Made by a program: the position numbers and the translations under genes. 64,000 nucleotides of DNA from Eutreptiella sp. 'Long Island Sound 2002' (Eukaryota; Euglenozoa; Euglenophyceae; Eutreptiales; Eutreptiaceae), in NCBI GenBank assembly GCA_964036045.1, contig OZ038384.1, positions 51,932,843 to 51,996,842 on the forward strand, given 5' to 3'. Numbering within the stretch: position 1 is the stretch's first letter; each line of letters starts with the position of its first letter. Positions 837 through 61,989 of this stretch are shown here, one piece after another. The notes beneath the pieces are model-generated. The model was not told where the DNA came from, made no database searches, and saw only the letters and a list, made by a program, of their open reading frames with translations.

Positions 837-1269
837 AAAGCGTTTCACCGCCGCGGGGTTACCCATCCCTCGCGTGCCACTCGGGGCCACCAACCCCGAG
901 CAGCGCGGCGCAGCAGCTCGCAGCTCGCAGCTCGCAGCGCAGCGCAGCAGCTGGCAGCGCAGCGCAGCGGCTCGCAGCGCCGCCCAGCGACAGCGCCGAG
1001 TTCGTCACGGAGCCCGCAGCGCCGTCCAGAGCATCGCCCTGACCGCGCCGCGACCAGGAAGGAGGTGCACAGACCAGGACTCCTGCATCAGCGAGTCCCA
1101 TCGGCCGACCAGCAAGGCCGCGTCAACCACCTCCACAACCACCGGCTGACCAGCACCAGCCGCACTCCCAATCCAGTGCTGCATCATCCGCCTCAACAAA
1201 CACCACCAGTTCGTTGAGCGGAACGAGTGATCACCAAGGACCTAAAGATCAACTACGCCCCCCGCTGCC
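837..1269 (+). other. TE1 leader between LTR and gag, with CAGC-rich short tandem repeats
   Basis: Untranslated leader ahead of the gag ATG. Bases 905-990 are built of repeated GCAGCTC/GCAGCGC units. I could not find a convincing primer-binding site directly after the LTR: there is no match to the initiator-Met complement TGGTAGCAGAGC that two other elements in this window carry, so the primer tRNA is unknown. Confidence 0.6.
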
Positions 1270-5580: not shown

Positions 5581-5610
5581 CGGAGCCCCTGCAGCCAAGG
5601 GCCCCAGCTA
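5578..5610 (+). promoter_or_regulatory. gag/pol junction: TAG-CGG candidate stop-codon readthrough site
   Basis: Gag and pol are in the same frame, and the only stop between 1270 and 10557 in that frame is the TAG at 5578-5580. The next codon is CGG, a context known to favour readthrough in several RNA viruses (the stop-CGG class). GC-rich sequence just downstream could fold. Readthrough would give the low Pol:Gag ratio needed. Whether the stop is programmed or a mutation is inference. Confidence 0.5.
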
Positions 5611-8600: not shown

Positions 8601-10557
8601 GGCTCTCAGGAAATGGGCTGGGTACATAGCCCTCCATCCCGTCACCGTCTGCACCGACCATCAGAGTCTGCAGTCGTGGCACAAGGAGCACGTGGACACC
8701 CCCTCAGGTCCCGCCTCCCGACGGGCAAGATGGCTTGAGACCTTGGCCAAGTTTGACCTCACGGTTGTGTATATTCCTGGAAAGGACAACACCGTGGCGG
8801 ACTGTCTCAGTAGGTGGGCCTATCCCGCCAGCAAGGGGATGACGAATATCTCTGCCCATGGCGATGAGGCTGAGACCGCTGAAGCCAAGAAGATCATTGA
8901 AATGGAGCGCCTGATGGAGGAGGAGGGTGTTAAATGCTTCGTCGTCATGGCTGCGGATGCCCCCCTCGGAACGAGGATGGGCAGAGCGGTCAGAGTACTC
9001 GCCCCTGATGGAGCTGAGTCCGACAAGCACCTCTTCCCGGAGTCTTGCCTCCAGGACGACTGGACCGACGACTACGCCAAGTCTGAGGTCTTTGCGGCCG
9101 AGTATAGGGCTGTGACCGACCCTGATGACGGGCAGAAGCGGCCAAAGGGGCTGACTGAGGAAGATGGCAAGCTCCACCAGAATGGTAAGCTGCTAGTAGC
9201 AGAGTCCCGGGTGCTCGAGCTGTGTGAAGCTTGGCACCACCACATGCTGCACCCAGGGGTCAAGAAGCAAGCTCTTGACATGCAGCGTCGGTTCGAGATC
9301 GACCATATCGTTCTCTACACCGCCATCAAGAAGGTCAGGAAGGGTTGCTCGGTCTGTCAGGCCTGCAATCCCGATAACCGGAACGTCAAGGGGGAAGCCC
9401 AATGGACCCCGGTTCCTGACCAGCCCATGGAGAGCGTGGCCATGGACGTCTTCTCGATGCCCGAAGTGCACATTGGCAAGGAGACCTTTGACTGTGTGGT
9501 TCTTTGTGTGGATCGCCACAGTGGCTACGTAGTAGCCGTTCCGGCACGCAAAAAGGGGTTGCTTGCCAAGGAAGTGGCAGTCATGATGATTCGTCATTGG
9601 CTGACCGTCTTTGACATCCCCCGCACCATTTGCAGTGACCGAGGGCCCCAGTTTACTGGTGGCTGGTTCAAGGCTATGTGTTCCCTCATGGGAATACGTC
9701 ATGCCAAGAGCGTCGCCTATCTCAGCCGGTCTAACGGCCGTGCTGAAGTGGCTGGACGGCAGCTGTTCGAGAAGCTGCGCAAGATCCACATCACCAATCC
9801 ACGTCGGAACTGGTTTGAGGAGATGTGGCCTGCTCTGAAGGCCCATCATGACACCCCCACTCCGGGCGGTTTGTCCCCTCACCAGATTCTGTTCGGCAGG
9901 GACCCCCTCGGTAGGGGACTTCCCTTGTCTGGTGATGGCATGGCTATGGATGCCAAGGAATTCTTCGCGCGGCAAGAGCAAACGGCGCGGGACATCCGCC
10001 AGCAGCTCGAGAAGGAGCATGCTGAGCGTCAGAAGTCCGCCCCGAGCTCGACAGCGCAGAATTTCAGGGTGGGACACCCGGTGTGGGTGATCAGACCCCG
10101 CCCTATGGGAACCCACCGCACCAAAACCTGGTTCACACCCGGCGAGGTGGTCCGCAGGATTGGTGAGGACACCTACCGCATCAAGGTGGGTCACCGACGG
10201 TTCCGGGAGCGCCACAAGAGTCAACTCCGTGTGCGGGAACCCGACCTCCGTGGCCAACATGTGTCCCTGAGCTATGCCGCACATGAGGCCGATTCGGACG
10301 ACGACTATGCTGAGCAGGACGACTATACTGTCAAGAAGATCCTGGCTCAGCGTCCGAAAGCCTCGGCACCCGGAGGTCTGGAGTTCAAGGTTCGTTGGCG
10401 AGGCTATGGGACGTCCCACGACACCTGGGAACCCGTCTCCTCGTTCGTGCCGCGGGTCAATACTCCCTTCATGGAGTACATCCGCAAGCACAAGGCCAAG
10501 ATCCACGTTTTGGACTTGGCAGCACTCACCCGGGCGATTGCAGCCAGGGGCGCCTGA
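5581..10557 (+). CDS. Pol polyprotein of TE1: protease, reverse transcriptase, RNase H, integrase, chromodomain
   Basis: First ATG at 5632; open in frame from the gag stop. Counting from 5632 (1641 aa): aspartic protease DTGAQVSL at about aa 131; a long linker; RT from about aa 600 with DLKHGYHQMPL and the catalytic FVDD at about aa 773 (Phe where YxDD is usual); RNase H with TDASDYAVGAVLEQ at about aa 940 and CTDHQSL; integrase zinc site H-H-C-C (HHHMLHPG...CSVCQAC) at about aa 1201-1246; DDE residues in MDVFSMP (about 1271), SDRGPQFTGG (about 1334) and GRAEVAG (about 1369); C-terminal chromodomain at about aa 1563-1622 (VKKIL...FKVRWRGYG...DTWEP). Domain order RT-RH-IN-chromo is Ty3/gypsy chromovirus. 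Chromodomains are known to steer integration to marked chromatin. Confidence 0.95.
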   Translation, partial: RSPCSQGPQLGRSQDGDVGSAEPSQSGVDKHKGTAAGGRPGPAPSRGGRVRASEGTNPCTRPSFATKNVFDVLQDLSESIGGSPGPQLDAADVPPEPIVHDLHQSLVELLERPEILSLHAVRRVGRERQLHLKVRALCGEVEKVFDVLVDTGAQVSLVKAGLLPPECLTDSRKPVRLKVANGQYMAGGTKEAAIGLQFVNHRELSRPDLGKEILLHGRFYEAEMDWDMIVGYDFMMETDSGVLPAQASMTLYQDDQLSWLSSPEHHVECQWIHPERNQLEVAVLDTEPTGPANQEYGVMPEVASRVVADLGASDLALDAFSSGTSAHLRVCEKYWSAQDSAWKKHWGPHQGLMWIHCPRWDIPRAIAKIRKDRSKAVLVVPMGCTEEESTRHWVASLTNMTLNKVVLPAGESVYQDAKGQPMPPQRWPTEFHYVDGGLDQANTTDFVCVNRIVAEPWRQCFAVPPVDIGESEDPLTEEELDLVQGYMDQPFHDWGNQREGKGQDKAWWEVDSIVSGSYDGDTFVRRVLDHLSSQDEPIGGNPPTYGDLFRGKTRDGPLGHLGRPPEPKTSGVATPQVSSVVQVPGKAKAESDDCPKIQALRARLKQKYGDTFFSGKPVFPPPVRGSYGEAKIRLKQDPRVYRHREFALRGERKEAMEKILRDFIQRGWLEPCHSEWASPCFVVPKKVAGEWRLVVDYRGLYAQTQHDSYTLPLIEDMLQKQHRRRIFTVIDLKHGYHQMPLAEESRACTAMSTPLGPLQWKVMPMGVINGNAAFQRMLENLLEPVRDCADPFVDDVIIASGDPSMSYEELLEAHERDVTRVLDLLVRHKLTGSSDKATIAVSEVVIAGHVVGNGQRKPIPGKVAAIEHWEKPKTVSELRAYLGLCNYYSGYIKMYAEYAAPMMTMLKGNREETKKGSKKALVWDADSDRAFEGMKQALLSAVGLHLVDPDRGFVLRTDASDYAVGAVLEQVLDDGRHVPVAFWSRVLAEGQRRTWTPREKEAYAIVMALRKWAGYIALHPVTVCTDHQSLQSWHKEHVDTPSGPASRRARWLETLAKFDLTVVYIPGKDNTVADCLSRWAYPASKGMTNISAHGDEAETAEAKKIIEMERLMEEEGVKCFVVMAADAPLGTRMGRAVRVLAPDGAESDKHLFPESCLQDDWTDDYAKSEVFAAEYRAVTDPDDGQKRPKGLTEEDGKLHQNGKLLVAESRVLELCEAWHHHMLHPGVKKQALDMQRRFEIDHIVLYTAIKKVRKGCSVCQACNPDNRNVKGEAQWTPVPDQPMESVAMDVFSMPEVHIGKETFDCVVLCVDRHSGYVVAVPARKKGLLAKEVAVMMIRHWLTVFDIPRTICSDRGPQFTGGWFKAMCSLMGIRHAKSVAYLSRSNGRAEVAGRQLFEKLRKIHITNPRRNWFEEMWPALKAHHDTPTPGGLSPHQILFGRDPLGRGLPLSGDGMAMDAKEFFARQEQTARDIRQQLEKEHAERQKSAPSSTAQNFRVGHPVWVIRPRPMGTHRTKTWFTPGEVVRRIGEDTYRIKVGHRRFRERHKSQLRVREPDLRGQHVSLSYAAHEADSDDDYAEQDDYTVKKILAQRPKASAPGGLEFKVRWRGYGTSHDTWEPVSSFVPRVNTPFMEYIRKHKAKIHVLDLAALTRAIAARGA

Positions 10558-20072: not shown

Positions 20073-20168
20073 GACAGCGCGCGCTATACCTGGTATAGCG
20101 CGCGCCGTAAGGCTCATAGCGCGCGCTGTAAATATGTTGCGCGCGCTACACTGTCTGCGCCCGTAAGG
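20073..20168 (+). repeat. GCGCGC inverted/tandem repeats 3' of unit B gene
   Basis: Four or five GCGCGCGC blocks, including an inverted pair GCGCGCGCTATACC / GGTATAGCGCGCGC that can fold into a hairpin. They lie directly after the stop of the unit B gene. Unit A is inserted at their right edge. Confidence 0.65.
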
Positions 20169-20173
20169 ACCTG

Positions 20174-20202
20174 CTTAGGCGGCTCAAGTTGCATGGTCAA
20201 AA
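20174..20202 (+). repeat. Left terminal inverted repeat of unit A
   Basis: 29 bp, identical to the reverse complement of 26541-26569, preceded by ACCTG. It ends ...GGTCAAAA; the pairing stops at the next base. Confidence 0.93.
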
Positions 20203-20371
20203 ACGAAGGAAAAGGTAGGAAAATGACAGGTTTCCAAAGGCATCGAAAAATAGTTGTTTTGATGGATATTATAAAAGCGTCGCAAACAAGTATGGCGAAT
20301 TAAATATTTCTATAAAAATGTTGTGTCCCATGGGCGAGACAGGGAAAAGTATTGTTTGGTGACCATTCTTT

Positions 20372-20673
20372 GCGCGGGGCCGAGCGCAAAGACGTTCATT
20401 TATGTCAGATTAATGTGCTACAGCACGACGCATTAGGCAGGTTGTCGAAAAATGGAACCCTGTCGTATTTATACACGTAACTTAGTACCATTATCAGGAT
20501 TGCGTGAGTGAGATGGATGTATTAACGAATAAACTGCAACAATGGTGTACCCAAGAATCCTGAAAAGTATAAATGTTCCGGAACAAACTGCAGTTTCAAG
20601 CGCGAGGCCTCGCGCATGGAACGGCGCATGAGAAACATTAAAGTTTCGGTGATCATTGCGCGAGGCCTCGCGC
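20372..20673 (+). repeat. Left subterminal palindromes of unit A (3 copies)
   Basis: Core GCGCGAGGCCTCGCGC occurs perfectly at 20600-20615 and 20658-20673 (the latter extends to a 22-bp perfect palindrome, 20655-20676). A degenerate copy, GCGCGGGGCCGAGCGC, is at 20372-20387. Position near the terminus suits binding sites for the element's own protein. Confidence 0.85.
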
Positions 20674-21061
20674 AATGGAGGTCAGAAGCGCTCATAGAAA
20701 CCAAAATTGGACAGATCCACCAACTACACAGCATGTGCGTTCCCTTGATGCGGCGCTGCTGCATGGGCGCCCATACAGGTCCCGCCGGCATCTCCAGTTT
20801 TCATACTGTGGTCACCGCTGACTTCACTGCCCAACAGCGATAGAAGCACGCCGCAACTGGGTACCGCAATCAGGATTAACTAGTGAAATGTGGGATCACC
20901 AGACAGTTACAGGTAACCGAAAATGGTGCATGCGACAAGCGAATCACAGAATAATTGGTCGCGCGAAAACTGAGTGACAGGTTGATGTTTGAAATCAAGA
21001 AAGTTTTTCAAACAGCGATTTTTACGCAGATACAGTTACGCAATTATTCTTTACAGCAACA

Positions 21062-23047
21062 ATGCCCCTGCGAAAAGAGGTGGACCTTGAGAAGACAGTG
21101 GCCGCAGCATCCGGAGTTTTCCAAAATGTCTGCTCAGAGGAACCGCCGTACCACACGGCAGAAGAACTGTGGGAAGGGCTAAAACAGGGGGACGAGGGCG
21201 CGCGATTGTTGTTTGTGTTTTTTCTGCGTCTGCGCAAAAATGAACGGACGCGTTGCAGCGTTGAAAAGGCGATTGCGGCAGAAGGGAAGAGATGGGTTGG
21301 TGTTTTGATAGAGGAGGCCTGGCGCCTTTTTTTGCTGATGCGCCACCGCCCAGTCCCATACCAGGGAAAACCAAAGTCAGTTGTTGCGGCAGAGGGAAGT
21401 AGGGCGCAGCGTCGCATTTTAGTTAGGTCAGGTTTGGCGCGATACAGCGCACCTTCGCTGAAGGAGAGGGCCGCACTCAGGTTACAGACTACATGGGACA
21501 AAATTTACCAACAGTGGGTTGTGTTGTGGATGGACAACTGGTACAACAAACAGTTTACCACAAATCCTGACAAGAACGACATAAGCCTGAACGCAACAGC
21601 GTTGGCTGTGTTGCTACTGAAGGATGCACCGCGCTACTGGCATGGTCATCCTAGCCTCGAAGACCTTGAACGGCGTGTTCCTGTTGTTGCACGCATGCTG
21701 GAAAACACCGACGGAACGTTTGCACGTATCCTCCACGATCTAGGATTTGCAAGCACGCGACCTGTCGTGCGAAACATTAGGGCACCGCTTGACATTATTC
21801 GCCCTGTGCCTGCCAAGAGACCACATTGGCGACCCCTTTGTCTAAGCAAAGAAAAGGTAAGCGGCAACCTATCGCTTCTTAACCTACTGCAATTTACTAG
21901 GGACTTGGCGCAGCACAGCCGACCAGTTGTCCCTGTCTTATGTGATGAGAACATCCATTACCGCATTTGTAAGATGATGTACGGTGAAAAAGCAACGGGT
22001 TGGAACGTCTGGCTTTTTTTGCGTTCACACCCTATATTATATGGTTTCTGGCACGCGTACAAATTTTGCGTTACACAAACGTTTCGCTCATTTTGCCCGA
22101 TTGTGACCTTTTTCCGTAAGGGTTCGTTGCGCAGCGGTGACACAGTCCCCTGTTTTTCCAAGATGATCACAATGGAGATAACTGTCGGTGCACTGCTGTT
22201 GGGTATGGGCCCCCACATACGGCGCCTTAACCGAAAATGTTGTTCCCTTGAGCTGGCACGTCCTGCAAATCGGCAAGGTTGCCTCTGTTACGCTGTGTGT
22301 AAGGCCATGCAGGTTCTGTTAACACAATACTGTCCCATGTTACTGTACCTAGGACACCTCGTTAGGCAGTGCAATTGGGCTGGGGAGACGGCCAACACGG
22401 GTGTTTTTGCTTCTGAAGGATTGCAGATTGTTATGTGTCTGTTAGACCGTTTGAACATGGGGGACACACTTTTGAAATACGAACGCACTGTTGCAACTGC
22501 GCTATTGTGCCACACTGCATGGCACACAGCCATGCCTGGTCAGGCTTTTGCCGAGGAATTTTGTGAAAGTCTGCTTTCCAGCCTTGTGACAAAGAAGGGC
22601 CAGAACAGAGGTGCAGTAACCATTGAAGATGTTGACGATCTGTATCAGCTCATCACTATCCGCAAAGAAGGTCACAGGGTGAACGTCTGTAAAATCCCCC
22701 ATTCCTTTGTCAATTCCGTGCGTCAGCGGTTAACTGCTTACTTGACCGCAGAGCGTGTATATGTGCCTTGGGTTAGGTGGTGTGCTGAGCCTACTTGTGC
22801 AATTCAGGCGCATTGGCCGCGCAGGGGTGTACCTAACTTTCCGACGTCTCTTCTAGTTCCAAAGGGTTCTAACCACTACAAACAAGTCCTTGTGTCTGTG
22901 TTGTTGGTGCTAACGCAGCTGGGGCCACTTAAGGCTGGTTTCAAGCGAAAACTTTCGGAGCTGATCCCCCAACGCAGTGTGTTGGAGGAACAGAGAGAGG
23001 CCGACACGCTGCGAAACATTGGAAGAAGATTGGAGAACATGCAGTGA
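21062..23047 (+). CDS. Unit A gene 1: 661-aa protein of unknown family, transposase candidate
   Basis: A single uninterrupted ORF with ATG at 21062, 11 bases after a possible acceptor (TTTACAG), so a 5' UTR intron is possible. No family recognised. It is rich in aromatic residues and Cys/His. The most conserved-looking part is aa 290-345: an acidic DENIHYRICKMMYG (Asp at about 295), then WNVWLF...ILYGFWHAYKFCVTQTFR and CFSKMITMEITVGALL, the sort of layout seen in RNase H-like transposases, but I cannot assign the catalytic triad. The C-terminus ends in a basic/helical LEEQREADTLRNIGRRLENMQ-like stretch. As the larger intact gene in a TIR-bounded element it is the best transposase candidate. 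It is flanked by palindromes at both ends (20658; 23049). Confidence 0.75.
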   Translation: MPLRKEVDLEKTVAAASGVFQNVCSEEPPYHTAEELWEGLKQGDEGARLLFVFFLRLRKNERTRCSVEKAIAAEGKRWVGVLIEEAWRLFLLMRHRPVPYQGKPKSVVAAEGSRAQRRILVRSGLARYSAPSLKERAALRLQTTWDKIYQQWVVLWMDNWYNKQFTTNPDKNDISLNATALAVLLLKDAPRYWHGHPSLEDLERRVPVVARMLENTDGTFARILHDLGFASTRPVVRNIRAPLDIIRPVPAKRPHWRPLCLSKEKVSGNLSLLNLLQFTRDLAQHSRPVVPVLCDENIHYRICKMMYGEKATGWNVWLFLRSHPILYGFWHAYKFCVTQTFRSFCPIVTFFRKGSLRSGDTVPCFSKMITMEITVGALLLGMGPHIRRLNRKCCSLELARPANRQGCLCYAVCKAMQVLLTQYCPMLLYLGHLVRQCNWAGETANTGVFASEGLQIVMCLLDRLNMGDTLLKYERTVATALLCHTAWHTAMPGQAFAEEFCESLLSSLVTKKGQNRGAVTIEDVDDLYQLITIRKEGHRVNVCKIPHSFVNSVRQRLTAYLTAERVYVPWVRWCAEPTCAIQAHWPRRGVPNFPTSLLVPKGSNHYKQVLVSVLLVLTQLGPLKAGFKRKLSELIPQRSVLEEQREADTLRNIGRRLENMQ

Positions 23048-23048
23048 T

Positions 23049-23119
23049 GCGCGAGGCCTCGCGCAAACAGCATGAAACAACAGGTTAGTACACCCCCTCT
23101 CTTGCGCGAGGCCTCGCGC
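23049..23119 (+). repeat. Two palindromes between unit A genes
   Basis: Perfect GCGCGAGGCCTCGCGC at 23049-23064, starting one base after the gene 1 stop, and at 23104-23119 (22-bp perfect palindrome 23101-23122), upstream of gene 2. They could serve as regulatory or termination structures, or as protein-binding sites. Confidence 0.85.
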
Positions 23120-23282
23120 AAGGTTGACAGTCAAAAACAGTGCCGAGCCCCTTCAGTTGTGCATTATCAACCATACTGTACTCGTATTCGCTAAAAGCAC
23201 CCCACATATGCATTATCGACGACGATTTTACCCATTTTTAATGTTATGTTTCCTTCAATATAGGCTTTCTTCTTATCGCAGA

Positions 23283-26069
23283 ATGGCAAGCCCCGCCCAA
23301 AAAACAGCCGAGGAACGAGAAGATACCGACTATGACCCTGGGACCTCGGGATTGGAGGCTGGAACACCAAAGAAGGGGCGTAAGAAGAAGGAAACACAAG
23401 ATCCTGCCTTAACCTTGGGTACTGACATCGAGGACCACCTGAAGCCGGACGGGGGGCAGGTGGAGGTTGAGCTGGACAACGTGAGAATCACCCAGGAGAA
23501 GACAAAGGGGCAGATCAGACGGAAAGATGCGAAGTTACTGCAGAAGCGTATTGAGTCACTCGAAGCAGCACCGCCCACAGGCCCATTACACGTCGTTCTC
23601 TGGGAAGATAATAGTATGTTGCCAACCGACTTTTCGCTCTTCTCGTTGCGCGAGCCCTCGCGCAAAGACGTGTCTCATATTTGCAGATGGCGATTATTGG
23701 TGTGTATCTGGACAGCACAGCGTGGAAGCGGTTGCGAAGATTCGGGAGAAGCGACGCACCGCGTGTCTGGATCTGCAGCAGTGGCGTACTGTATGCATCG
23801 CCGATCTTCTAAAGCCTACGACACCGTGGGCCTTCCGTGCAAAGCTGGCGGGACAAGCACAAGGAAGCGCACAAGACGTTGAGCCCATTCCGCTGTATGA
23901 GGCAGCAGATAACCTCATTGGATGTGTTGAAGATCAGCGGCGGCGAGGCCTACCTGACACGTACAGCAATCTCAAGATTGCCATTGTGGATCCTGTGCAG
24001 ATGAGTGCCCTCGTTCCAACCGCTGAACTGAAACAACCTGGTCAATTCGTATGTTCATTAATCGTTGTTTCGGTGCTCTTCGTTGCGCGAGGCCTCGCGC
24101 ATAACGTTGTCACTTTCAGGACAAAACGTATAAATTGTGGAAAGATTTTATGACGTTTGCCTACTATGCTGGTCCGGAAGCTGTGAAAGGTCTGCAGAAG
24201 TTCCACGACAAAGGGCAGAAAGTCAGGAAGAATGCGCTGAAGAAACTAGGCAGGATCCTGTTGCCGGAGTTCTACAACAAAGTGGCAGAAGGGATGCAGG
24301 GAGAAAAAACAACCCTTAAATCCTTGCAGAATTCGTTTGACGACATCATCCTTGAGCAGTGGGTCTCAATGCATCTGGACCACCCGCACAACGGCCAGTA
24401 CGTTGGACCTGAGAAAGGTGTGTACCATCGACGCGACGCGGGTTCCATTTCTGCATCAGTGCGCCGCACTTTCTCTTTTTCTGTTCTTTAGCCAAAGACA
24501 TGCGGACCCGCAAAGAGGTTGCTGCACTTGGAAGGCCTGCCCTGAAGGTGACTCTTGGTACATGGGGCTATTGGCGGGAACCTGAAGGCAAAAGTCGCGG
24601 TCCATGGCCGGCATGGAAATCCATGATTCGCGCACCACTGTGGCAGGTGGCAGAGAAACGCAAACCCGCCTCCCTGAAAATCCTCAACGTCCGAAAACTC
24701 CTGGGTCAAGAGCCTACCAGAAGCCGTGTGGTCCCCCCACCTGCTGGCGTTACTGGTGACTCCAAGACAGTGGAACAGCAGGATCCATCACTGTCAAGTC
24801 AAACTATCACAGTTAAGGCGACCCGAGTTGCAGCGTTGAACCACGAACCCCCGAAGCGGTTCATGGAGATTGACAAGAACCTGATTATCATCAACGGCGA
24901 CATATTTGAACATCTTGCTCCTGACACGATGTGCCCAGCCTGGCTGTATGAAGAGATGGCGCGTGCCGATACCCTTATCTGCGGCTCCAAAACTGTTGTT
25001 GACAACATGTTCAACGTGCTGGAAACGGAAACAGAGAGGCGTCTCAACGATGATTTCAACGCGCCGTGCATTGGCCACATGTTGCTTATTCCCATCTTCA
25101 GTTGGCCAGTCAAACCGAAGCCTGCAGGGGATCCTACAACGTTTGACGTCCGCTGGTTGCTGATTGCGTCACCGGATAGCTGGTCGAGAAAGGTATAATT
25201 CCCTCATTACGTCCGCTCTTTGCGCGAGGCCTCGCGCAATAACTTCTCCCTCATTGCAGATTCCGAATTATCTGACGTTTGGACCTACTCAAGTAGAGGA
25301 GATGGATCCTGTTGAATTTGGCGGTCACCTTCCGATAACGACGGTTATGTGGTATTTCGACACTCACCTCTTTCACCTGAAGCAGGATAAGACCTTCAAG
25401 CCTGCGTTTGTGTTCATTGATCATCAGCCGGATCTGGTGTGCAAGATCGCGTCCGTCGAGCCGGATTCTCGCATGTACCTTCTTGGTGTTACCTCCGACA
25501 ATCTCTCCGATTGGGTCAACAGAGTGCAGACTCAGTTGAACCATGTATTGACACAATAGTCGAAACTGCACGCGTCTGGTAATTGGGACCAGCAAGCCAA
25601 CTGGGCAAACCGTGGTATTCCCCTTTGGGTTTGCGATCACAAGGTGGGTTATGAGGCGTTGTCGCTGAAGGAGGAAGAGACTGTTGAGAAAGGTCAAGCT
25701 GCAGAAGCACTGGCCCCTGCAAAGCGGAAGTCTACTGGTGGGGAACCAGCCCCCAAGAAGAAGAAGACTGCCTCCAAGCCTCAGGCAGCCAAGTCGGTTA
25801 CCGGTGCAGAATCCGACGAGAGCGATGGGGATGAAGAGGAGGAGAGCGAGGAAGAAGAGGAGGAGGAAGCGCAGGTCTCCCAGGGCAAGGCAGCGAAGAA
25901 AGTGGCAGCGAAGCCGAGGTCCGAGGAAACCGGGGCCCGAGCTCCATTCAAGCAGCCAGCCCGTCAGTCCCAACCAAGAAGCGCGCCCGCAAAGCCACCT
26001 CCTAAGGGTAACACGTCCGTTGCTAAGGCTATGGGTTGTAAGATGCAAACTGTTCCGAAGAAAAAGTAA
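23283..26069 (+). CDS. Unit A gene 2: five-exon gene, ParB-like motif and charged C-terminus, one in-frame TAG
   Basis: Exons 23283-23613, 23687-24048, 24120-24417, 24492-25192 and 25260-26069 join at GT/AG sites (donors GTATGT, GTATGT, GTGTGT, GTATAA) with the frame kept at all four junctions, 834 codons in all. The start ATG follows an acceptor-like ATCGCAG. The N-terminus is charged; exon 2 opens with GDYWCVSGQHSVEAVAKIR, which recalls the G-Q/R-H-R/S-x-x-A core of ParB/sulfiredoxin-fold proteins (a weak likeness). The middle part is unrecognised. The last exon holds an in-frame TAG (25557-25559) after ...NHVLTQ, then stays open for 169 codons through a Lys-rich and a Glu/Asp-rich tract to TAA at 26067-26069. 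It could be a DNA-binding accessory protein of the transposon; that is inference. Confidence 0.75.
23614..23686 (+). other. Intron 1 of unit A gene 2, containing a palindrome
   Basis: GTATGT...TTTGCAG, 73 bp. It carries GCGCGAGCCCTCGCGC at 23648-23663, one base off the perfect palindrome. Confidence 0.85.
24049..24119 (+). other. Intron 2 of unit A gene 2, containing a palindrome
   Basis: GTATGT...CTTTCAG, 71 bp, with a perfect GCGCGAGGCCTCGCGC at 24085-24100. Confidence 0.87.
24418..24491 (+). other. Intron 3 of unit A gene 2, without the palindrome
   Basis: GTGTGT...TTCTTTAG, 74 bp. The only intron of the gene lacking the palindrome; it has GACGCGACGCGGG near its start instead. Confidence 0.8.
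25193..25259 (+). other. Intron 4 of unit A gene 2, containing a palindrome
   Basis: GTATAA...CATTGCAG, 67 bp, with a perfect GCGCGAGGCCTCGCGC at 25222-25237. Confidence 0.87.
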
Positions 26070-26095
26070 TTTCTTCGCTTGTTCTGATATATTAT

Positions 26096-26219
26096 GCGCG
26101 AGGGCTCGCACTATAAATTCATCTTCGACGACCCTTATGCTGTCACCTTGTGCGGCACATTTTTCTCTGTGATGCATTTTATTGCGCTGTTGTGTTGGTG
26201 TTTGCGCGAGGCCTCGCGC
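26096..26219 (+). repeat. Right subterminal palindromes of unit A (2 copies)
   Basis: Degenerate GCGCGAGGGCTCGCA at 26096-26110, 27 bases after the gene 2 stop, and a perfect copy at 26204-26219. They mirror the left subterminal copies. Confidence 0.8.
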
Positions 26220-26540
26220 AAAGAAGGGGTGCCAAACAATGCTTCCTGTTGTGCAGCGTGCAACATGGTTTTCGAAAACTGGTTTTCCAAAAGATTGAAA
26301 GCTCATGGGTGTTTTCATTGCAAAGCATAAGTGGTATAGGAAACAAAAAGTCGTGGTTTTCCCAAAAAAGAACTTCATTTTGGTGGAAATAAATCATTTT
26401 CTTGGGCAGTCGGTTGTGTTGAAAATAAAGGAAAATGGACCAGTTAATTGCTTTTCACGGGATTTTTGGTTCTTGCGTTTTACGTCCCCCCCAAAAGGAC
26501 TATTTTTTCGCAGTGCCGTGGAGAGGCAGTTTTCGGCGCA

Positions 26541-26569
26541 TTTTGACCATGCAACTTGAGCCGCCTAAG
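26541..26569 (+). repeat. Right terminal inverted repeat of unit A
   Basis: Exact reverse complement of 20174-20202; followed by the ACCTG duplication at 26570-26574. Confidence 0.93.
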
Positions 26570-26574
26570 ACCTG

Positions 26575-27149
26575 TACTGTTGCACACTTTTTAGACCTTT
26601 CAGAAAGTGTTTTTGCATGTGTCTAAGGTTCGAAATTGGTTTCAAAAAAAATGATCAGTTTTTTCCGATCGTTTTTCAAAAAAATAACCGATTGTTCCGA
26701 TTATGGCCCCTTCAAAGAATCAGTTTTTTCCGATCGTTTTGCAAAAAATAACCGATTGTTCCGATTATTGCCCCTTCATTTTTGGATCTTTCATTTTCCA
26801 ACAAAATTCTTATTGCACATTAAAATTTCACTAGGATTTTTAGTGATGATGTCATCTTTGCTTATCATCATGCAATCACTGATGACGTCACCACGATGAC
26901 GTCATCACGGTATCACTGATGACATCATCACGATGACGTCATCACAGTCCCATAATTCCAAACACTTTACATCTAATCAGCCGTCAGGGCCAGGCCATCA
27001 GAGCCATGCTGGCTTCCACACTTGGTGGCTTGCCCAACTCACCTATTGGTGGCAGGCCACCAGGGGAGGCATGGTCCGACTTTCTAGACACCCAGTCAGG
27101 CTGCACTACCTGTTGTACTACTTCTTTTTGTCTCCTTGCAGGCAAAATC
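26575..27149 (+). repeat. Non-coding stretch with tandem GATCGTTTT-type repeats and TGACGTCA repeats
   Basis: 26657-26715 is repeated nearly exactly at 26717-26775 (CAGTTTTTTCCGATCG... unit, about 60 bp). Bases 26846-26946 are short repeats of GATGACGTCATCAC, so the palindrome TGACGTCA, the core of a CRE/bZIP binding site, occurs several times. No ORF here is credible. Confidence 0.7.
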
Positions 27150-27812
27150 ATGGGAAACCGTGGTGTGAAACCAAAGCCAAAGGCCCCTGCAACCAGACTG
27201 CCAGCCAAACGAAAACCGGGGCAACCTCGCCGCACTCCACAACACATTGCAGACCCTGCGGGCCTGTGTGATACCTGCGATGTTGAACATATTATTGCAG
27301 AACGCATGCCAAAGAACGACAAAGGCAACAGTGAAAAGCAATGGCTGGTCCAGTGGAAGGGTTTTCCTGCCTCCGCCCAAACATGGGAGCCGCTTGAGAA
27401 ACTCGGTGGCTGTGAGGCCTTCATCGCGCGGTTCAACGAGGAGCGTGAACCAAATGAACGGGCTGACCTCGAGAAGCGCAAGAGAACAAGAGATGCGCAG
27501 GAAGAAGAGCGCCAGAAGAAGCAAAAATCAGAGTCTGGGACTGCCTTATTAGATTCTGCCACGTCAGCACCACTGCAGGCTCAAACAGGTCGGCGAACTT
27601 CGGTTGTCTGGACAGCTTTCACAGAAGACGGTGAGGACCCAGCGTTTGCCAGATGTGTCCTGCACAGAGAAAATGGAGTCTGCGGCATTCGAATCAAACA
27701 CTGCAGTGGCACTACAAATCTGCAAAACCTACGAAACCACAGTGGTGTGCATCATACGTTTTCGCTTCTTCTCCAGTTCAGCGACAGTTTGCCATTTTGG
27801 ATTCCTTGCTGA
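27150..27812 (+). CDS. Chromodomain plus BED-type zinc finger protein, likely N-terminus of a transposase
   Basis: ATG at 27150, nine bases after an acceptor-like TTGCAG. A Lys/Pro/Arg-rich N-terminus is followed by a chromodomain at about aa 47-100 (CDVEHIIAERM...QWLVQWKGFPASAQTWEPLEKL...FIARFNEER), a charged coiled region, then a BED-finger-like segment at about aa 148-200 (SVVWTAFTEDG...C...C...TTNLQNLRNHSGVHH: aromatic pair, two Cys, two His). BED fingers are common at the N-terminus of hAT transposases, and chromodomains occur in retroelements and host chromatin proteins; their fusion is unusual. The frame closes soon after the finger, either because an intron starts or because the gene was cut by the TE3 insertion at 28051. 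Confidence 0.65.
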   Translation: MGNRGVKPKPKAPATRLPAKRKPGQPRRTPQHIADPAGLCDTCDVEHIIAERMPKNDKGNSEKQWLVQWKGFPASAQTWEPLEKLGGCEAFIARFNEEREPNERADLEKRKRTRDAQEEERQKKQKSESGTALLDSATSAPLQAQTGRRTSVVWTAFTEDGEDPAFARCVLHRENGVCGIRIKHCSGTTNLQNLRNHSGVHHTFSLLLQFSDSLPFWIPC

Positions 27813-33103: not shown

Positions 33104-34996
33104 TCACAGTTTTCCGTTGTCCAAAAAATATTGGGAAAAAGTTCCGTCCTGAAATGCTGACTTTGAAGTCAAATGTTCGTAGATTTCTTCAAACATATTA
33201 TCGGATTTATATTCTTTGGGCCAATCCTTGGTGAGCAGGGAGTCCTTGGGGATCGCCTGGGCAGGTGCCACAGGTTTTCGACCCAATGGATGGACACATC
33301 TGAACCGCACCACAGGATTTTGTCGTTTAACGAACTTGGGGGTGGATTCTCCAGGTTTAACTACTCTGAGGGTGTCGACACGCACTGCAGAGCATTGGAC
33401 ATGGGAATGTGGGGGATGATCCTCCACTGTGATATCGTGGCAGGGCAATCGACCCTGCCGGACTGAACACTGTAGACAGTGGCGCTTAATCAACTGCCTT
33501 TCCTCCGCATCCCACTCAATTACTAACCCACGGTCTTGTTCAGTCCCATGGATGTTCGTCGGCACGCACGCTTTGGAAGCAGGATATGCCCATCTGCTTA
33601 AAGCGTCAGCGACAGTGTTGTACTTGCCTGGAAGGTAAGCCACATGAAGATCGAAAAGACTCAAAAACTCGTGCCATCTAGCACGGCGTCCAGCAGGACC
33701 TGACACCGTGTTGACATGTTCTGTCGACCAGTACTCAAGAGAGCGATGATCCGTCAGAACTTCAACTCTGTTTGTGCCTATCCACGATTGAAATTTTTTT
33801 AAGGCACAGATGATGGCGTAGGTCTCCTGCCCACGGGGGGACCACTGCATTTGTCTGGGAGTAAGCTTCCTCGACCAGAATGTAAGCGGATAATGAGCCC
33901 CAGTTTCTAAATCTTGCTGTTCTAACACTGCCCCAACCGCATACTTACTAGCATCACTCCTATCGTAGAAAAGACTATCGAATTTGGGAGCGTGCAAAGT
34001 GGCGACTTCGCAGAAGGCGGCTTTTAGTTGCACAAACGCCTCATTGCACTCGTTGGTCCACTGCACTCGCACCTTCGAGCCCGCACGACCAGCCTCCCTA
34101 CCAACCTTGAGTAATTCAGTAAGGGGGGCGGCGTACCTTGCATAATCCTTGACGAAAGTATGGTAAAAATTGCAACAGCCAAGGAATCCACGAAGGGCCA
34201 AAATGGTCTCAGGGCGCTTCCACTTCTGAATTGCAAGGAGCTTCGCTGGACTCGGCTGGCGAGTCCCATTTCGTAGCAAACAGCCACAGAATTCGACACT
34301 TTCCAGGAATAATTTACCCTTCTTGGGACCGCAGATGAGCTGATTTTTGTCCAGAATGTCGAGGACCATGTTCAGCTGTTTCTCATGCAGGTCCACAAGC
34401 TCCTGTTCGGTTAAACCATCGCACACAGTGGCGATGATTATGTCGTCGATATACACGAAAACAAATTCACGAAGCTCAGGGTGCTCTGAAAACAAGGTTT
34501 CTTCCATCATCCGTTGGAAAAAGCTCGGAGCATTCTTCAAACCCATAGGCATGACGGTCCACTGAACAGGACCCACTGGACTGCACATGCACGTCAGGGG
34601 TCTGGATGACTTCGCCAGAGGCATCTGGTGGAAGCCATGCCTTAGATCCAGGACTGAGAATAGTTTCCCCTTGGTTCTTTTCACAATTTCCTCCTCAATG
34701 AGGGGTAAAGGGTGCGAATCAGCCTCAGTTTCCGCATTTAAATTACGAAAATCAACCACCATGCGCCAACCATCAATGGAATTCTGGTCTGCTGGGGGCG
34801 GTTTAGGCACTGTGAAGGGCGCATGACACCACTCAGAGGTCATGCACGCCTCCAACCAGCCGAATTCTTGCAGATTTCTCTGAATGATGTCACGAAGAAT
34901 TTCATGCTTCTTGCCATGATTTTCGTAAGGTCGCTGCTTTTTGGGTTTTGCTCCCTCCTTTAGCCCGATGAACGCCTCCCCGTGCTGGCCACGCAC
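33104..34996 (-). pseudogene. TE3 reverse transcriptase and RNase H
   Basis: 631 codons. RT shows VLDLRHGFHQMPLAKSSR, SPVGPVQWTVMPMGLKNAPSFFQ and the catalytic YIDD at about 34443-34454. RNase H shows DRSDASKYAVGAVLEQ (an Arg in place of the usual Thr before Asp-Ala-Ser), SPRGQETYAI and LTDHRSLEYW, then the H2C2-preceding linker. In frame with the protease part upstream (TAG at 35015-35017 between them) and with the integrase downstream. The key catalytic residues survive despite the flanking stops. Confidence 0.93.
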
Positions 34997-35014
34997 TGGA
35001 GGGTTCTTGACGAG

Positions 35015-36637
35015 CTAACCAGAGAGGGTGGTGTCCTTTCGCTCGGCAAAAATCTTTTTCCTTCGCTCATTGCAAAGTTGACTTTCAACCTGTTCACCAG
35101 CCACCACCGTAGAGCAAATTTTCGCCAGATCTCGCGATCCAGCAGGCAACAGACCTTGTTTCAACGACTGAAACAGAGAGGGATCGACTCCCTCTTGCGG
35201 GTATGTCGTGGATGCCCGAGCCTGCTGAGCATCTTCCAGATCCTCACAGACAAAGGGGTCGAAAAAGGCCTCAAACTTGGGCTTTTTGTAAAATTGTCTC
35301 AATTTGACCTTCTTTCGGAATCTTGTTCCCTTGACCAGGTAGGAGATGCTTGCTGGATCTGATCGTATTGGGGTCTGACTACAATCAGAGGTTCCAGATT
35401 CCAGGTTCGGCACCGTATCATCTCCTTCCAAAAAATGGGAAAAATTCGAATCTGAATCCGTACCATGGTCAAGACCTGATTCTGACCCATGGTCTGATGT
35501 GCAAGATCCGTCAGAGATGAGACCTCCATTGACCAGAAAAGCGACGGAAGGCCACAGCCGCTGTCGCAGCGGACCAGTGTCGTCCCTGGCGTACAGCTTG
35601 ACGTCGTGGGGGAGGCGGATGGAGTCGAGTGTCATGGCCAAAACATCCTTCCACCATGGTTTCCAATCCCATAGTGGTACGACAAGGATGGCCTGTGTCC
35701 GATCCTCCTTTTTTTTTTGAACGACCTCCCCCAACAAATGAAGAGGGGGGTTTATCCACAGCCTTTTATCCCACTTTACTGCCGTTGCATCGTCAGCTAA
35801 GCGCTTGAAACGCTTGTTTAACTCGTTGCAAAAGGCATCCTTGGCGGGCGCAAAATCGTGGTTCTCCAAAAAAAAGGAACGTATATAATCACGCCACTTA
35901 TCTACAACGCGGTAGTTGGAAGACTTCCAATTGCGCGGTTTGGGATGCTGAGTGTCCCTTCGTTGCTCCTGTAGCAAGATGCTGTAAGCCGTAGTGGCGT
36001 TTATCTCACTAATCCCTTCATCCTCACGGAAAACTGTGTTCACCCTTCGACTCAAAAATTCTTTTGCATTTCGGTACCCAGAATGCAAGAACCGAAAGCT
36101 GGGAGCTTCCTGCTCTCCTGATTCCAAAATAAAACAACGTCTTTGTCCTACAGGGGCCACTTTGTTCTTCGTTAAAAATGGATGACCTAAATAAAGGTCG
36201 TATTTGATGGCCGCTCTATAAAAACAATCCTCTAAAACAACATCCTCTACCTTACCTTCCTCCCATAAATCCTGGGCGACCATGTGCGCCTTCAGAAACG
36301 AACCTGTATTCCCTCTTGGGAGAGCATGACCTGAAACACCTTCCAGGTTAACGGGGTGCAGCGAAGTGTCAACACATTCGTCTGGTAAAAATATTTCTGA
36401 CTGAAGATTCACTTCACTACCATTGTCACAAAGACACGTAGCAAGGTGTTTGTTCCCCTTCTTGTCAGTAACCCACAGACGACAAATGAATTGATGAGCT
36501 CGGTATTTGTTGGGAACACCGATCTCCACAACATTCCTATTTCCATCCGCCTCAACTCGCGGTGGTCCTACAGACAACGCTCCAATGTCCACGATCGGAC
36601 ATTCAGGGAAACGCCTGATTGTGTGTCGGGTGGCCAC
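35015..36637 (-). pseudogene. TE3 protease region of pol
   Basis: 540-aa frame with a retropepsin-like core LATCLCDNGSEVNLQSEIFL: the catalytic triplet is D-N-G instead of D-T/S-G, which would probably abolish activity. GHPFL...C follows in the place of the usual second conserved motif. The remaining 300 aa are an acidic linker to RT like that of TE1 (the element-specific KLRQFYKKPKFEAFFDPF region). It lies in the same frame as the gag end at 36653-36655 (TAA), with no other stop between. Confidence 0.8.
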
Positions 36638-36652
36638 ACAATCTTGGCGCCT

Positions 36653-37232: not shown

Positions 37233-39916
37233 TACTACTTATTCGCTACTTACAGGACCCAGCATCATACGCCCGCCCCCGAAGCCCAGGACCCTCCGCC
37301 GTCTCCCACAGCGCTCTCTTCCGCCTCCGACTCCACAACCTCCACCACCACGACCACCTCATCCACCACCACCACCACGTCCTCATCCAGCACTCCACCC
37401 CCCAGGCCGCGGGGGACGCCTCCCAAACGGGCCCCCAAACCCGTTCCCACCGCGAGCAACCCCACCGCCGCCAAGGCCCACGCCCCGACGAGGCCCACAC
37501 CCGCGACCCAGCCGAAACCCAAGACCGCCGCCAAACAGCCCCCCAAACCCGTCAGCGCGCCACGACCGCAACCCGCAGCCAAGCCCTAACCCAAGTCCAG
37601 ACCAGGCGCCACGACGGCAGCGCGAGCCCGGCCCCCCGAGGACGTCCTCTATGACATTCGGGCCCAGCCGTCCCAGGCCCGGAGGCAGCGGCGCCCAGCA
37701 CAGCGCCTCCCCACCGTCACCGACGCCGCCGCCACCACCTTCACAGCGGAGCGCGCCGTGGCCGAAGTACAACGCACCTCGTCCCGCCACCTCTCAAAGC
37801 CCGCACCCAAGGCCCACGGACCGCCCTCGACCAGGCCAGAACGACGCTAGGGTCCACCAGCAGCGTCCCCGCCCCCCTACCAACCCTCGATGACAGCCCA
37901 CATGCAGCGCATGCCCCACTACCGCCACCGCCGCGAGTCCCCGCCCAACCCCGAGGCGGAGACCGTGCGCGCACACGCGCGGGTCCACATCCGCGCGCGC
38001 CCCCACTCCCCGCGCAGCCCCAGGGAACAGGACTACGAGGAATCCCCCAGGCCCGCCACCGCCACCGGTCCCCACGACCCCGTCACACCCACCCACGCCC
38101 ACTCCTCCGCCCAAGACCGCAGGCCCGCCCAGGGACAGTGGTGGCAGCGCTGGACCCACACGCAGCTCTGGGAGCTGCGAAAGTGGGCCCGGGGAGAGCC
38201 CTCCCCCGAGGGCCTGGTTCATCGGCCCGGCAAGGGGTCGGTGGAGAAGTGCCGCCTCTGGCCGGCGGGGGGTTGGATGCCGCAGGCCGCATGGGAAGCC
38301 ATGCTGGCCGATGCGCTGGTACCCCTGGGAGTCCACCCCGCAACCTCCCCGCGCCCCAGGACCACCCGTATGTCCTTAGGCGCCTGGGGGAGACCCTCCA
38401 GGAGACACAGCGAGACGGCATCCGCCTGTGGGACATCACCCAAAGCCCAGCCCCGCACAAACACACCCCCTCACCACCCCACAAGCGTCGGCGCACCGAC
38501 ACCGGCGGCACCCACAGCACCCCAGGAGCCCTGCGCACCACACAACACGACGCGCCTGACCCCCCGGCCAGCGGCGCCGCCACCTAACCCCGTTACCCAG
38601 CAAACCACCACCACGGGGCGCCACGCCAGGCCCCGCCCAGAAGTCACCAAACGAACCGGACGCCGAAGGACGCCAACGCACACGACAACGGGCACCACTA
38701 TGCACAAAGGCACCGAACCCAGGCCCGCTACCGTCGCAACCGCCTAACCGAGCCAAAACCCAAACACAAATCAAACCCGAGCCACACCCCGAAACCGCTA
38801 ACCCTTGACTCCTGACCAGGCCCGCCGAGGGAACAACGTAACAACAGCCCACACCCACAGCCCACACAGCCGCCTAACCAGCCAGCTCCAGAAGCAAAGA
38901 GACACCTCACCAAACCCACCCTGACCCAAGCCCGTGTACATCAGGACGCGCGAGCCGCACTTCCGGGGCGCGACCGCCGCCACAGCACCGACGACACACG
39001 CCAGAGGACAAAACACTGTTGCACCGCCGCACCAGCTGCCCGTGCCTGTGCCTGCAGTGTACGCGCGCCCCTGTTTTTCTTTTTCTTCCAACAAAAAAAA
39101 ACGAAAATTAGGGGGGGAGGAAGAGGGACACAACCACCCATGGCACACGTGCACCGCACACAGCGCGCACACCGGTGAACGGCAGCCAAGTGGCCCAGGA
39201 CACCGCACACGCAACACACCACACCGAGCGAGCACACCGGTGAACAGGAGCCAAGTGGCCCAGGACACCGCAGACGCAACACAGCAAACCGCGCGGGCAC
39301 AGCGGTGAACAGGAGCCAAGCAGCCCAGGACACTGCACACACGTAGGGCGGCCGAGGGACAGGAAAGAACCAATACCCCATGGGTTGGACGCACTGGGGC
39401 GACCCAGCCGACCCACCGGGCCAGTGGCAGGAGCGGTACTCCAAGGCCACTGGTCCGAGCCCGGCCAGGCTGCATCGGGGACCATGGCAAACGTCACCCG
39501 GAGCCATGGAAGCAACCGGTGACAGGCGAGCCGGTACACAGTCCAGGAGGGGGTCACCTGCCAAGCAGAGTGGCCCCGCAACTCAAACCACAAGGGTGAG
39601 GCGGTCGTACCGTAGACTGGCGGGAGCAAAACCCCTTGTGGTGAGAGATACTCCACACGGCTGAGCAGCCCCCAGAGCTGCCGCCCAAAGGAGGGGGCAT
39701 GTGGCCCTACCCATGGACACATGTGGGCACCCCCCCCCACCTGGGACACGTGGACCGGGTGGCAGCGACAATGCCTTCCCAAGCACATGCGGGAGCGGCT
39801 CAAGAGGCACCTGACATAGGGCAGTGGGAGGGACAGGACGTCCCCTTGGTAAGACCTTCTTCCTGCGATGTCAAAGGAGGCATCCCGAGCTCCCGAAGAT
39901 ACCTACCTACCTACCT
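37233..39916 (+). mobile_element. TACC-tailed retroelement, copy 2 (2.7 kb, 11-bp target duplication)
   Basis: Flanked by CTTATTCCACC at 37222-37232 and 39917-39927; ends in four TACC units (39900-39915). From left: Pro/Ala/Thr-rich coding-like sequence; a more conserved segment at about 38125-38580 (see the separate entry); a C/A-rich non-coding part; an A-rich run near 39090-39105; tandem units near 39170-39330 containing 'caccggtgaacaggagccaagtggccc'; and the same 3' 550 bp as copies 1 and 4. No reverse transcriptase is visible, so it is either 5'-truncated or non-autonomous and mobilised by another element. Confidence 0.88.
38125..38587 (+). pseudogene. Conserved ORF segment of the TACC-tailed family
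   Basis: Frame one reads QWWQRWTHTQLWELRKWARG...GWMPQAAWEAMLADALVPLGVHP up to about 38335; a one-base change of frame gives PRNLPAPQDHPYVLRRLGETLQE...GIRLWDITQSPAPHKH and a basic PPHKRRRTD end at 38587. The same pieces recur in copy 3 (minus strand: AWWSAPALQELRCWVKWAGG...IMPQAACEALLRDAVQGL) and copy 4 (minus strand: YADALHPLGVHPRNLPAPQDHPYVLRRLRETLQE). Conservation at protein level among diverged copies argues for a real protein; its family is unknown. It might be an ORF1-like nucleic-acid-binding protein. Confidence 0.55.
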
Positions 39917-59673: not shown

Positions 59674-60986
<1,313 letters not shown>

Positions 60987-61145
60987 CTGAGAATAAAGGA
61001 AGAGGGAAAAGTGAAATGGAAACCTACTAATACAACACAAAAGGGGGCGCGACAAGGGGGTTCAACAAGGGGTGCGATAAGGGGTTTATCACGTGATAAG
61101 GGTGCGCGATAAGGGCGCGATAAGGGGTGTTATCGCGCGACAAGG

Positions 61146-61953
61146 TAGGTAGGTATCTTCGGGAGCTCGGGATGCCTCCTTTGACATTGCAGGAAGAAGG
61201 TCTTACCAAGGGGACGTCCTGTCCCTCCCACTGCCCTATGTCAGGTGCCTCTTGAGCCGCTCCCGCATGTGCTTGGGAAGGCATTGTCGCGGCCACCCGG
61301 TCCATGTGTCCCAGGTGGGAGGGTGTCCCCACATGTGTCCATGGGTAGGGCCACATGCCCCCTCCTTTGGGCGGCAGCTCTGGGGGGCTGCCCAGCCGTG
61401 TGGAGTATCTCTCACCACGAGGGGTATTGCTCCCGCTTGTCTACGGTACGACCGCCTCACCCTTGTGGCTTGAGTTGCGGGGCCACTCTGCTTGGCAGGT
61501 GACCCCCTCCTGGACTGTGTACCGGCTCGCCTGTCACCGGTTGCTTCCATGGCTCCGGGTGACGTTTGCCATGGTCCTCGATGCAGCCTGGCCGGGCTCG
61601 GACCAGTGGCTTTGGAGTACCGCTCCTGCCACTGGCCCGGTGGGTCGGCTGGGTCGCCCCAGTGCGTCCGACCCATGGGGTATTGGCTCTTTCCTGTCCC
61701 TCGGCTGCCCTACGTGTGTGTAGCGTCCTGGGCCGTTGGGCTCCTGTTCACCGGTGTGCCCGCGCGGTTTGCTGTGGTGCGTCTGCGGTGTCCTGGGCCA
61801 GCTGGCTCCTGTTCACCGGTGTGCCCGCTCGGTGTGTTGTGTTGCATGTGCGGTGTCCTGGGCCCCTGGGCTCCTGTTTACCGGTGTGCGTGCCGTGTGC
61901 GGTGCGCGTGTGCCCTGGGTGGATGTGTCCCTCTTCCTCCCCCCCTAATGTTC

Positions 61954-61989
<36 letters not shown>

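Follow-up and report, generated by a model that had tools for sequence, protein, structure and literature searches.

The window analysed here, a 64,000-nucleotide stretch of DNA from Eutreptiella sp. 'Long Island Sound 2002', contains at positions 20174 to 26569 a 6.4-kb element that is almost certainly a genuine transposon of the terminal inverted repeat (TIR) type, with both of its genes on one strand. Taken together, the readings presented below describe a two-component DNA transposon of high copy number, in which gene 1 would encode the transposase and gene 2 a protein that binds a palindrome repeated along the element. The probability of this combined interpretation is put at about 0.5.

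The element begins and ends with 29-bp TIRs at 20174..20202 (plus strand; CTTAGGCGGCTCAAGTTGCATGGTCAAAA) and 26541..26569 (minus strand), which in the window copy are 100% complementary (29/29) and separated by 6338 nt. They are bordered by ACCTG, a 5-bp target-site duplication (TSD) located at 20169..20173 on the left and 26570..26574 on the right. A complete DNA transposon with these ends had been proposed by an earlier, sequence-only reading of the window, and the proposal is strongly supported by the TIRs, by the ACCTG on both sides and by a search of the 2.28-Gb host genome, which returned 39 other scored left-border matches starting no more than 9 bases from the first base of the element. 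That base is base 75 of the query; the match starts at 74 or 75 in 25 of the 39 and between 66 and 79 in the other 14. The host genome holds at least 40 copies or part-copies, the window copy included.

Twenty-four of the 39 matching loci were fetched and examined together with the window copy (25 copies in all). Further genomic copies with the same ends, on which the earlier reading had made its proposal depend, were found: both ends are present in 15 of the 25. Two-ended copies have exact borders, and each of the 15 has a TSD of 5 bp, identical at both sides and different at each site; the TSD sequences are random-looking and show no evident consensus. Single bases near a terminus are altered in L026 (fourth base of the left end), L042 (third base from the right end) and L023 (last base), the TSD of L023 being read on the presupposition of that change. 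Because 39 other matches start at or near the element border and a separate 5-bp duplication flanks every one of the 15 two-ended copies, the pattern is far beyond chance, and a chance inverted repeat was ruled out on these grounds. Empty sites, another comparison suggested from the sequence, were approached by joining flanks, with a divided outcome. The flanks of L019, joined minus one TSD, give an open frame through a retropepsin-like stretch of a retrotransposon (DTGAQVSL), which occurs also in the window's own Ty3-like ORF (5581-10554), whereas the joined flanks of L016 give no fully open frame.

The 15 two-ended copies lie at a mean distance of 1.92% from their majority sequence, and their variants are mostly private (1031 private versus 193 shared), as in a star-like family. 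Four of them (L010, L019, L024 and L042) are internally deleted with both ends and TSDs kept. The element had been described as recently active; this holds only in the sense of a divergence of about 2% from the majority; in 14 of the 15 two-ended copies one or both genes are broken.

The two genes and their products

Gene 1 (21062..23047, plus strand) is intronless and encodes a basic protein of 661 aa (pI 9.6-9.8) that is a likely transposase. Its ORF is uninterrupted in the window, as had been read, and is open in 4 of the 15 two-ended copies. Gene 2, also on the plus strand, comprises five exons (23283..23613, 23687..24048, 24120..24417, 24492..25192 and 25260..26069) and four GT-AG introns (23614-23686, 24049-24119, 24418-24491 and 25193-25259), and these previously predicted joins were confirmed in sequence. 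The frames were at first considered well preserved and the spliced product of gene 2 was given as 833 residues; in the window copy, gene 1 is indeed open, but in exon 5 of gene 2 the spliced frame runs into an in-frame stop at codon 664 (25557-25559), which shortens it from 833 to 663 residues. A gene 2 product of 833 aa is encoded by L012, the only one of the 15 two-ended copies with both genes open, and gene 2 alone is intact, at 832 residues, in L016 and L026. The protein has a long, low-complexity tail that is acidic and lysine-rich.

Neither protein has a match above cut-off in Pfam, NCBIfam or the PDB sequences, and PHROGs offered nothing better than E 0.29; this absence is weak evidence, because every search was made with single sequences and gene 2 was compared with NCBIfam, PHROGs and PDB only as a 147-aa piece. 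For gene 1, Pfam gave no match at E up to 10 with the window and L012 copies as single queries, and the best NCBIfam candidate, a surface protein at E 0.13, fell below the curated cut-off and was treated as chance. Also below the curated cut-off and taken as chance were DUF1844 on exon 1 (E 0.036), DUF7309 on a piece of gene 2 (E 0.047) and five Pfam families over or near the acidic tail (E 3-7.4, below cut-off); phrog_35000 (E 0.29) and a PDB cytochrome P450 (E 0.92) were dismissed in the same way. Useful relatives were obtained neither for gene 1 in a sequence search of phages nor in searches of viral_contigs and genome_contigs. The gene 2 piece gave two matches in phages and one in plasmids, all at chance level only, and its best phage match (E = 2) lies inside an ORF that reads as a cytosine methyltransferase, not as ParB.

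Exon 2 of gene 2 lends itself to comparison with ParB, and a check for a ParB-like fold had been proposed from the sequence. The comparison was abandoned as a supported statement, since neither protein has a match above the curated cut-off: searches with the whole L012 protein and pieces of it against Pfam, and with the 147-aa piece against NCBIfam, PHROGs and the PDB sequences, produced no ParB match. The single-sequence AlphaFold2 model of exon 2 has a pLDDT of 35.8 and is unusable for fold reading, as is a single-sequence model of an element protein at a pLDDT of 37.7.

Placement among described superfamilies

The element may represent an undescribed superfamily, a possibility also raised from the sequence at the outset. 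The chances are about even that it is instead a lineage of a described superfamily (hAT5-like, CMC/Transib-like, KDZ-like, Ginger2-like or known from Repbase only) too divergent for a single-sequence Pfam search. Some known transposase groups are poorly covered by Pfam, and the queries were single, near-identical sequences, both of which favour such a lineage, whereas the lack of any Pfam match for gene 1 even at the permissive threshold used argues against it. No published element was recognised in the literature as this transposon; the termini were not looked up by letters, so absence from print is not claimed. If both proteins do lie outside every known transposase group, they would extend by one lineage the set of eukaryotic DNA-transposon superfamilies, of which PMC10045372 counts 23 in Repbase.

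Comparison with individual groups yields partial likenesses. Transib elements have 5-bp TSDs and CAC-type ends, and ProtoRAG has two genes; the present element is similar to them in its TSD length and gene number, but its termini are CTTAGG and its TSDs lack an evident consensus. The CxxC motif is absent from three tested copies out of the four with gene 1 intact, and CMC/Transib membership was ruled out on this missing motif (C(2)C, defined as in PMC12730594). The same three copies contain one H(3)H, at residue 484.

A 5-bp TSD is recorded for hAT5 (PMC12730594) and for TDD-4/5 in Ginger2 (PMC2836005), which agrees with the element and is consistent with descent from a described group. However, no hAT or integrase-core match was found, and [CD]xxH (as defined in PMC10045372) occurs in gene 1 only as DKIH at residue 146, in 2 of 3 copies tested and not in the window copy; the interval relevant to this motif depends on where the catalytic residues of gene 1 lie. 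The TIRs of Ginger2/TDD elements measure 50-180 bp and their integrase core is Gypsy-like (PMC2836005), compared with TIRs of 29 bp and no Pfam match here.

Kyakuja-Dileera-Zisupton (KDZ) elements are TIR transposons reported from brown and green algae (PMC12477816 and PMC12730594), where, as in fungi, accessory genes are often part of the element. They resemble the present element as TIR transposons with an extra gene, but Zisupton has TSDs of 8 bp (PMC12730594) rather than the 5 bp seen in 15/15 copies, and gene 1 lacks a Pfam match; Zisupton membership was ruled out on TSD length. A second, possibly DNA-binding protein is also a feature of Sola1-1_Ec32, which PMC12477816 presents as a 21.5-kb giant transposon with a 1104-aa accessory protein that has ParB-like and DNA-methyltransferase domains and is encoded on the strand opposite the transposase. 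In contrast, no such domains were found in the present element, its genes lie on the same strand and its length is 6.4 kb.

The palindrome array and possible roles of the two proteins

A 20-bp palindrome, TTGCGCGAGGCCTCGCGCAA, occurs in about ten copies along the element. The majority sequence of eight copies contains ten sites, of which five are perfect: site 1 (20370..20389; altered in the window copy, perfect in 12/15 copies), site 3 (20656..20675), site 5 (23102..23121), site 8 (25220..25239; perfect in 13/15) and site 10 (26202..26221; perfect in 12/15). Sites 4 (23047..23066), 6 (23646..23665) and 7 (24083..24102) have one mismatch, and sites 2 (20598..20617) and 9 (26094..26113) have three. 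Coding sequence makes up 70% of the element, and all sites lie outside it, save that site 4 overlaps the gene 1 stop codon by one base, its first base being the third of that codon. Sites 6, 7 and 8 fall in introns 1, 2 and 4, so that three of the four gene 2 introns contain a palindrome and intron 3 has none. By position alone, the chance of all ten sites being non-coding is 5.6e-6, a figure that ignores the poor fit of a GC-rich palindrome to coding sequence. The outermost palindromes sit inside 47-nt subterminal inverted repeats at 20347..20393 (plus strand) and 26198..26244 (minus strand), which are 81% complementary in the window and match at 40/47 positions in the majority of eight copies. 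Neither the subterminal repeats nor the palindrome array figured in the sequence-only reading.

The product of gene 2 is tentatively predicted to bind the palindrome, with the gene 1 product or a host factor as alternative binders. It is rather unlikely that the palindromes are passengers, that is, a small mobile or amplifying hairpin inserted repeatedly into the non-coding DNA of the element, or sites for a host factor. Selfish GC-rich palindromes, present as small repeats in some organelle genomes, provide a precedent for such a hairpin, and in most places the palindrome copies have little sequence in common outside the palindrome itself. However, the flanking DNA that was checked contained no palindrome, and within the window and the 15 loci scanned its 12-bp core occurs in copies of the element and nowhere else, which makes a generally mobile hairpin unlikely; the location of the outermost two palindromes in matching inverted subterminal repeats also argues against it.

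In the proposed mechanism, the gene 1 product would be a transposase with an RNase-H (DDE-type) fold, cutting at CTTAGG..CCTAAG and joining the element ends to the target 5 bp apart, a staggered insertion that would generate the 5-bp duplication. The gene 2 product would serve as a DNA-binding partner specific to the element, recognising the palindrome and loading all along the element, its outermost sites being those within the subterminal repeats. Such loading may promote assembly of the transposition complex, or may regulate or mark the element. The array and the second gene together offer a testable case of a transposon that would be equipped over its full length with a DNA-binding system of its own, and this case bears on how transposon accessory proteins, for example the algal ParB-methyltransferase proteins described in PMC12477816, find their own element.

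A reversal of these roles, with gene 2 encoding the transposase or an endonuclease and gene 1 the accessory protein, is improbable. Gene 2 is the longer gene and has introns, and neither protein was identified, which leaves room for such an exchange; however, a low-complexity acidic and lysine-rich tail would be expected in an accessory or chromatin protein rather than in a catalytic core. Counts of single-base codon differences in eight copies also speak against it, the ratio of replacement to silent changes being 188:93 in gene 2 and thus higher than the 124:94 of gene 1, a comparison that is weak because most changes postdate insertion. Still less probable is a non-autonomous vehicle that depends on a transposase encoded at another locus and whose two genes were captured as cargo from the host or a virus: neither gene was recognised as a transposase, but 11/11 near-full-length two-ended copies carry both genes, and each gene has an open frame in at least two copies.

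The two genes had originally been termed a cargo. In L012 both frames are open, so the genes were probably maintained as the family spread, and the term is therefore doubtful. With an abundant family, a divergence of about 2% and one examined copy in which both genes are open, the activity of the element is testable.

Genomic copies and target sites

The element at 20174-26569 is a genuine, abundant and moderately young two-gene TIR transposon. Its inverted ends are 29 bp long with zero mismatches and ACCTG is present on both flanks, which bears out the perfect ends and 5-bp duplication described in the sequence-only reading. A 301-base query across the left border, in which the first base of the element is query base 75, returned at least 40 scored matches from the 2.28-Gb host genome, the window included (40 scored among 1983 candidates), at 94-97% identity. 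Among the 39 others, 25 start at query base 74 or 75 and the remaining 14 within 66-79; because these matches start at or near the first base of the element, the left border is an insertion border.

Twenty-four of the 39 other copies were fetched (15, then 3, then 6), giving 25 with the window copy. Fifteen show both ends (window, L010, L012, L016, L017, L019, L022, L023, L024, L026, L038, L039, L041, L042 and L043); ten show the left end only (L009, L011, L013, L014, L015, L018, L020, L021, L025 and L040) and, being truncated, interrupted or cut by the fetched stretch, were left out of the target-site counts. Further copies with the same ends were found, and all 15 two-ended copies carry identical 5-bp direct repeats at both borders (ACCTG, ACTTG, TTCAA, CCCTA, AATAG, TGATG, TATTT, TCCTT, TTTGG, TATGA, TAGAA, CGTAA, TTAAC, ATTCA and ACAGA; L023 is counted by assuming one altered terminal base), with no obvious target consensus among them. 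Four copies (L010, L019, L024 and L042) have internal deletions yet keep both ends and the duplications. The L019 insertion breaks a retropepsin-like open frame, which becomes continuous again when the element is taken out together with one duplication; in the joined flanks of L016, none of the three frames is open throughout.

Approximately 2.4 kb separates the two parts of the copy at L020:3437-7675, and the parts overlap by 7 bases where they break, which probably reflects a nested insertion that duplicated 7 bp. Directly left of the insertion site in the window, 20076-20150 holds four 13-nt AGCGCGCGCTATA-like repeats approximately 21 bases apart, which differ from the element palindrome, and directly right of the element a unit of approximately 64 bp occurs in two tandem copies (26649-26778).

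Coding capacity and comparison with known superfamilies

Gene 1 (21062-23047, + strand) is intronless, encodes 661 aa and is open in four of the 15 two-ended copies (window, L012, L017 and L039); its product is basic, with pI values of 9.6-9.8 across three copies. Gene 2 (23283-26069, + strand) requires four short GT-AG introns of 67-74 bp each and yields 833 aa in L012; the L016 and L026 products are one residue shorter, at 832. The well-preserved gene 2 frame attributed to the window copy did not hold up, as a stop lies at codon 664; the L041 frame is free of stops, but a length difference in its final exon puts its end out of register. Only L012 among the two-ended copies has both genes open with splice sites intact.

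Neither product was recognised above a cut-off in any protein library searched, the few weak matches being at chance level. Pfam was searched with gene 1 (window and L012), with gene 2 exons and with the full-length L012 product of gene 2; NCBIfam, PHROGs and PDB sequences were searched with gene 1 and, for gene 2, a 147-aa piece. Single-sequence structure predictions had pLDDT too low to be used (37.7 for gene 1, 35.8 for gene 2 exon 2). By eye, gene 1 residues 153-184 read VVLWMDNWYNKQF..NPD..D.SLNATALAVL, a possible match to the start of an RNase-H fold (first strand, aspartate, hairpin).

Repbase draws superfamily boundaries by the convergence of transposases in iterative searches (PMC4455052). 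The chance that the element represents a new superfamily appears somewhat below even. The element resembles hAT5, a known 5-bp duplication group (PMC12730594), in duplication length. Ginger2 is described with duplications of 4 or 5 bp, but also with ends of 50-180 bp and an integrase core (PMC2836005; PMC10045372), whereas the element has 29-bp ends and no core was found. For CMC and Transib, the motifs C(2)C and H(3-4)H are given as common features (PMC12730594), whereas CxxC is absent from gene 1 in the three copies tested of the four intact. For the [CD]xxH motif (PMC10045372), whose interval is set by the catalytic residues, gene 1 offers one candidate match, at residue 146, seen in two of the three tested copies. 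Zisupton, with 8-bp duplications in the same account (PMC12730594), differs from the 5 bp of all 15 two-ended copies. For a DNA-binding accessory, the nearest published analogy found is a Sola1 element with a ParB-like and methyltransferase accessory protein, in an Ectocarpus survey that also cites similar proteins in green and red algae (PMC12477816); in gene 2, for which a check for a ParB-like fold had been suggested, the sequence searches found neither domain.

The palindrome array

The most distinctive new observation, and a handle on mechanism, is a palindrome array: in the majority sequence of eight copies, TTGCGCGAGGCCTCGCGCAA recurs ten times with 0-3 mismatches, and at five of these sites the match is perfect. 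The stretch left of gene 1 has three sites, the intergenic stretch two, introns 1, 2 and 4 one each, and the stretch right of gene 2 another two; intron 3 has none. Although coding sequence makes up 70% of the element, no palindrome enters it apart from site 4, which takes in the final base of the gene 1 stop codon. The probability of this by position alone, 5.6e-6, overstates the case, because coding constraint by itself disfavours such sequence. Nine sites (site 3 was left out owing to an alignment gap) are each kept in 12-15 of the 15 copies with 0-5 mismatches, and across the window and 15 fetched loci the 12-bp core GCGAGGCCTCGC is confined to element copies. The outermost palindromes are embedded in a 47-nt inverted subterminal repeat (40 of 47 positions match in the majority). 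The palindromes are read as putative cis-acting sites that a protein of the element, in the simplest case the gene 2 product, would recognise.

Divergence of copies and neighbouring features

The 15 two-ended copies are related in a star-like pattern such as a single burst would leave, with a mean distance from the majority of 1.92%, pairwise distances of 2.0-4.8%, and 1031 variants private to a single copy versus 193 shared. In eight copies, replacement and silent codon changes stand at 124:94 for gene 1 and 188:93 for gene 2, which would fit mostly neutral decay after insertion. C-to-T plus G-to-A changes are about twofold enriched at CpG sites (104 of 5707 versus 180 of 18837 elsewhere).

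Elsewhere in the window, two long open frames of 1444 and 1658 codons at 1246-10554 (+) resemble by eye a Ty3/Gypsy-type retrotransposon, and two adjoining open frames at 33107-36652 (-) read, again by eye, as a second Ty3-like pol. A 268-aa ORF directly right of the element (27006-27812, +) contains a chromodomain-like stretch, also by eye. A long repeat is present as two inverted copies (38336-39912 and 61143-63538) with blocks 90-98% complementary, and approximately 320 bases at 59882-60206 are self-complementary in many registers without a spacer, presumably a short-period alternating repeat.
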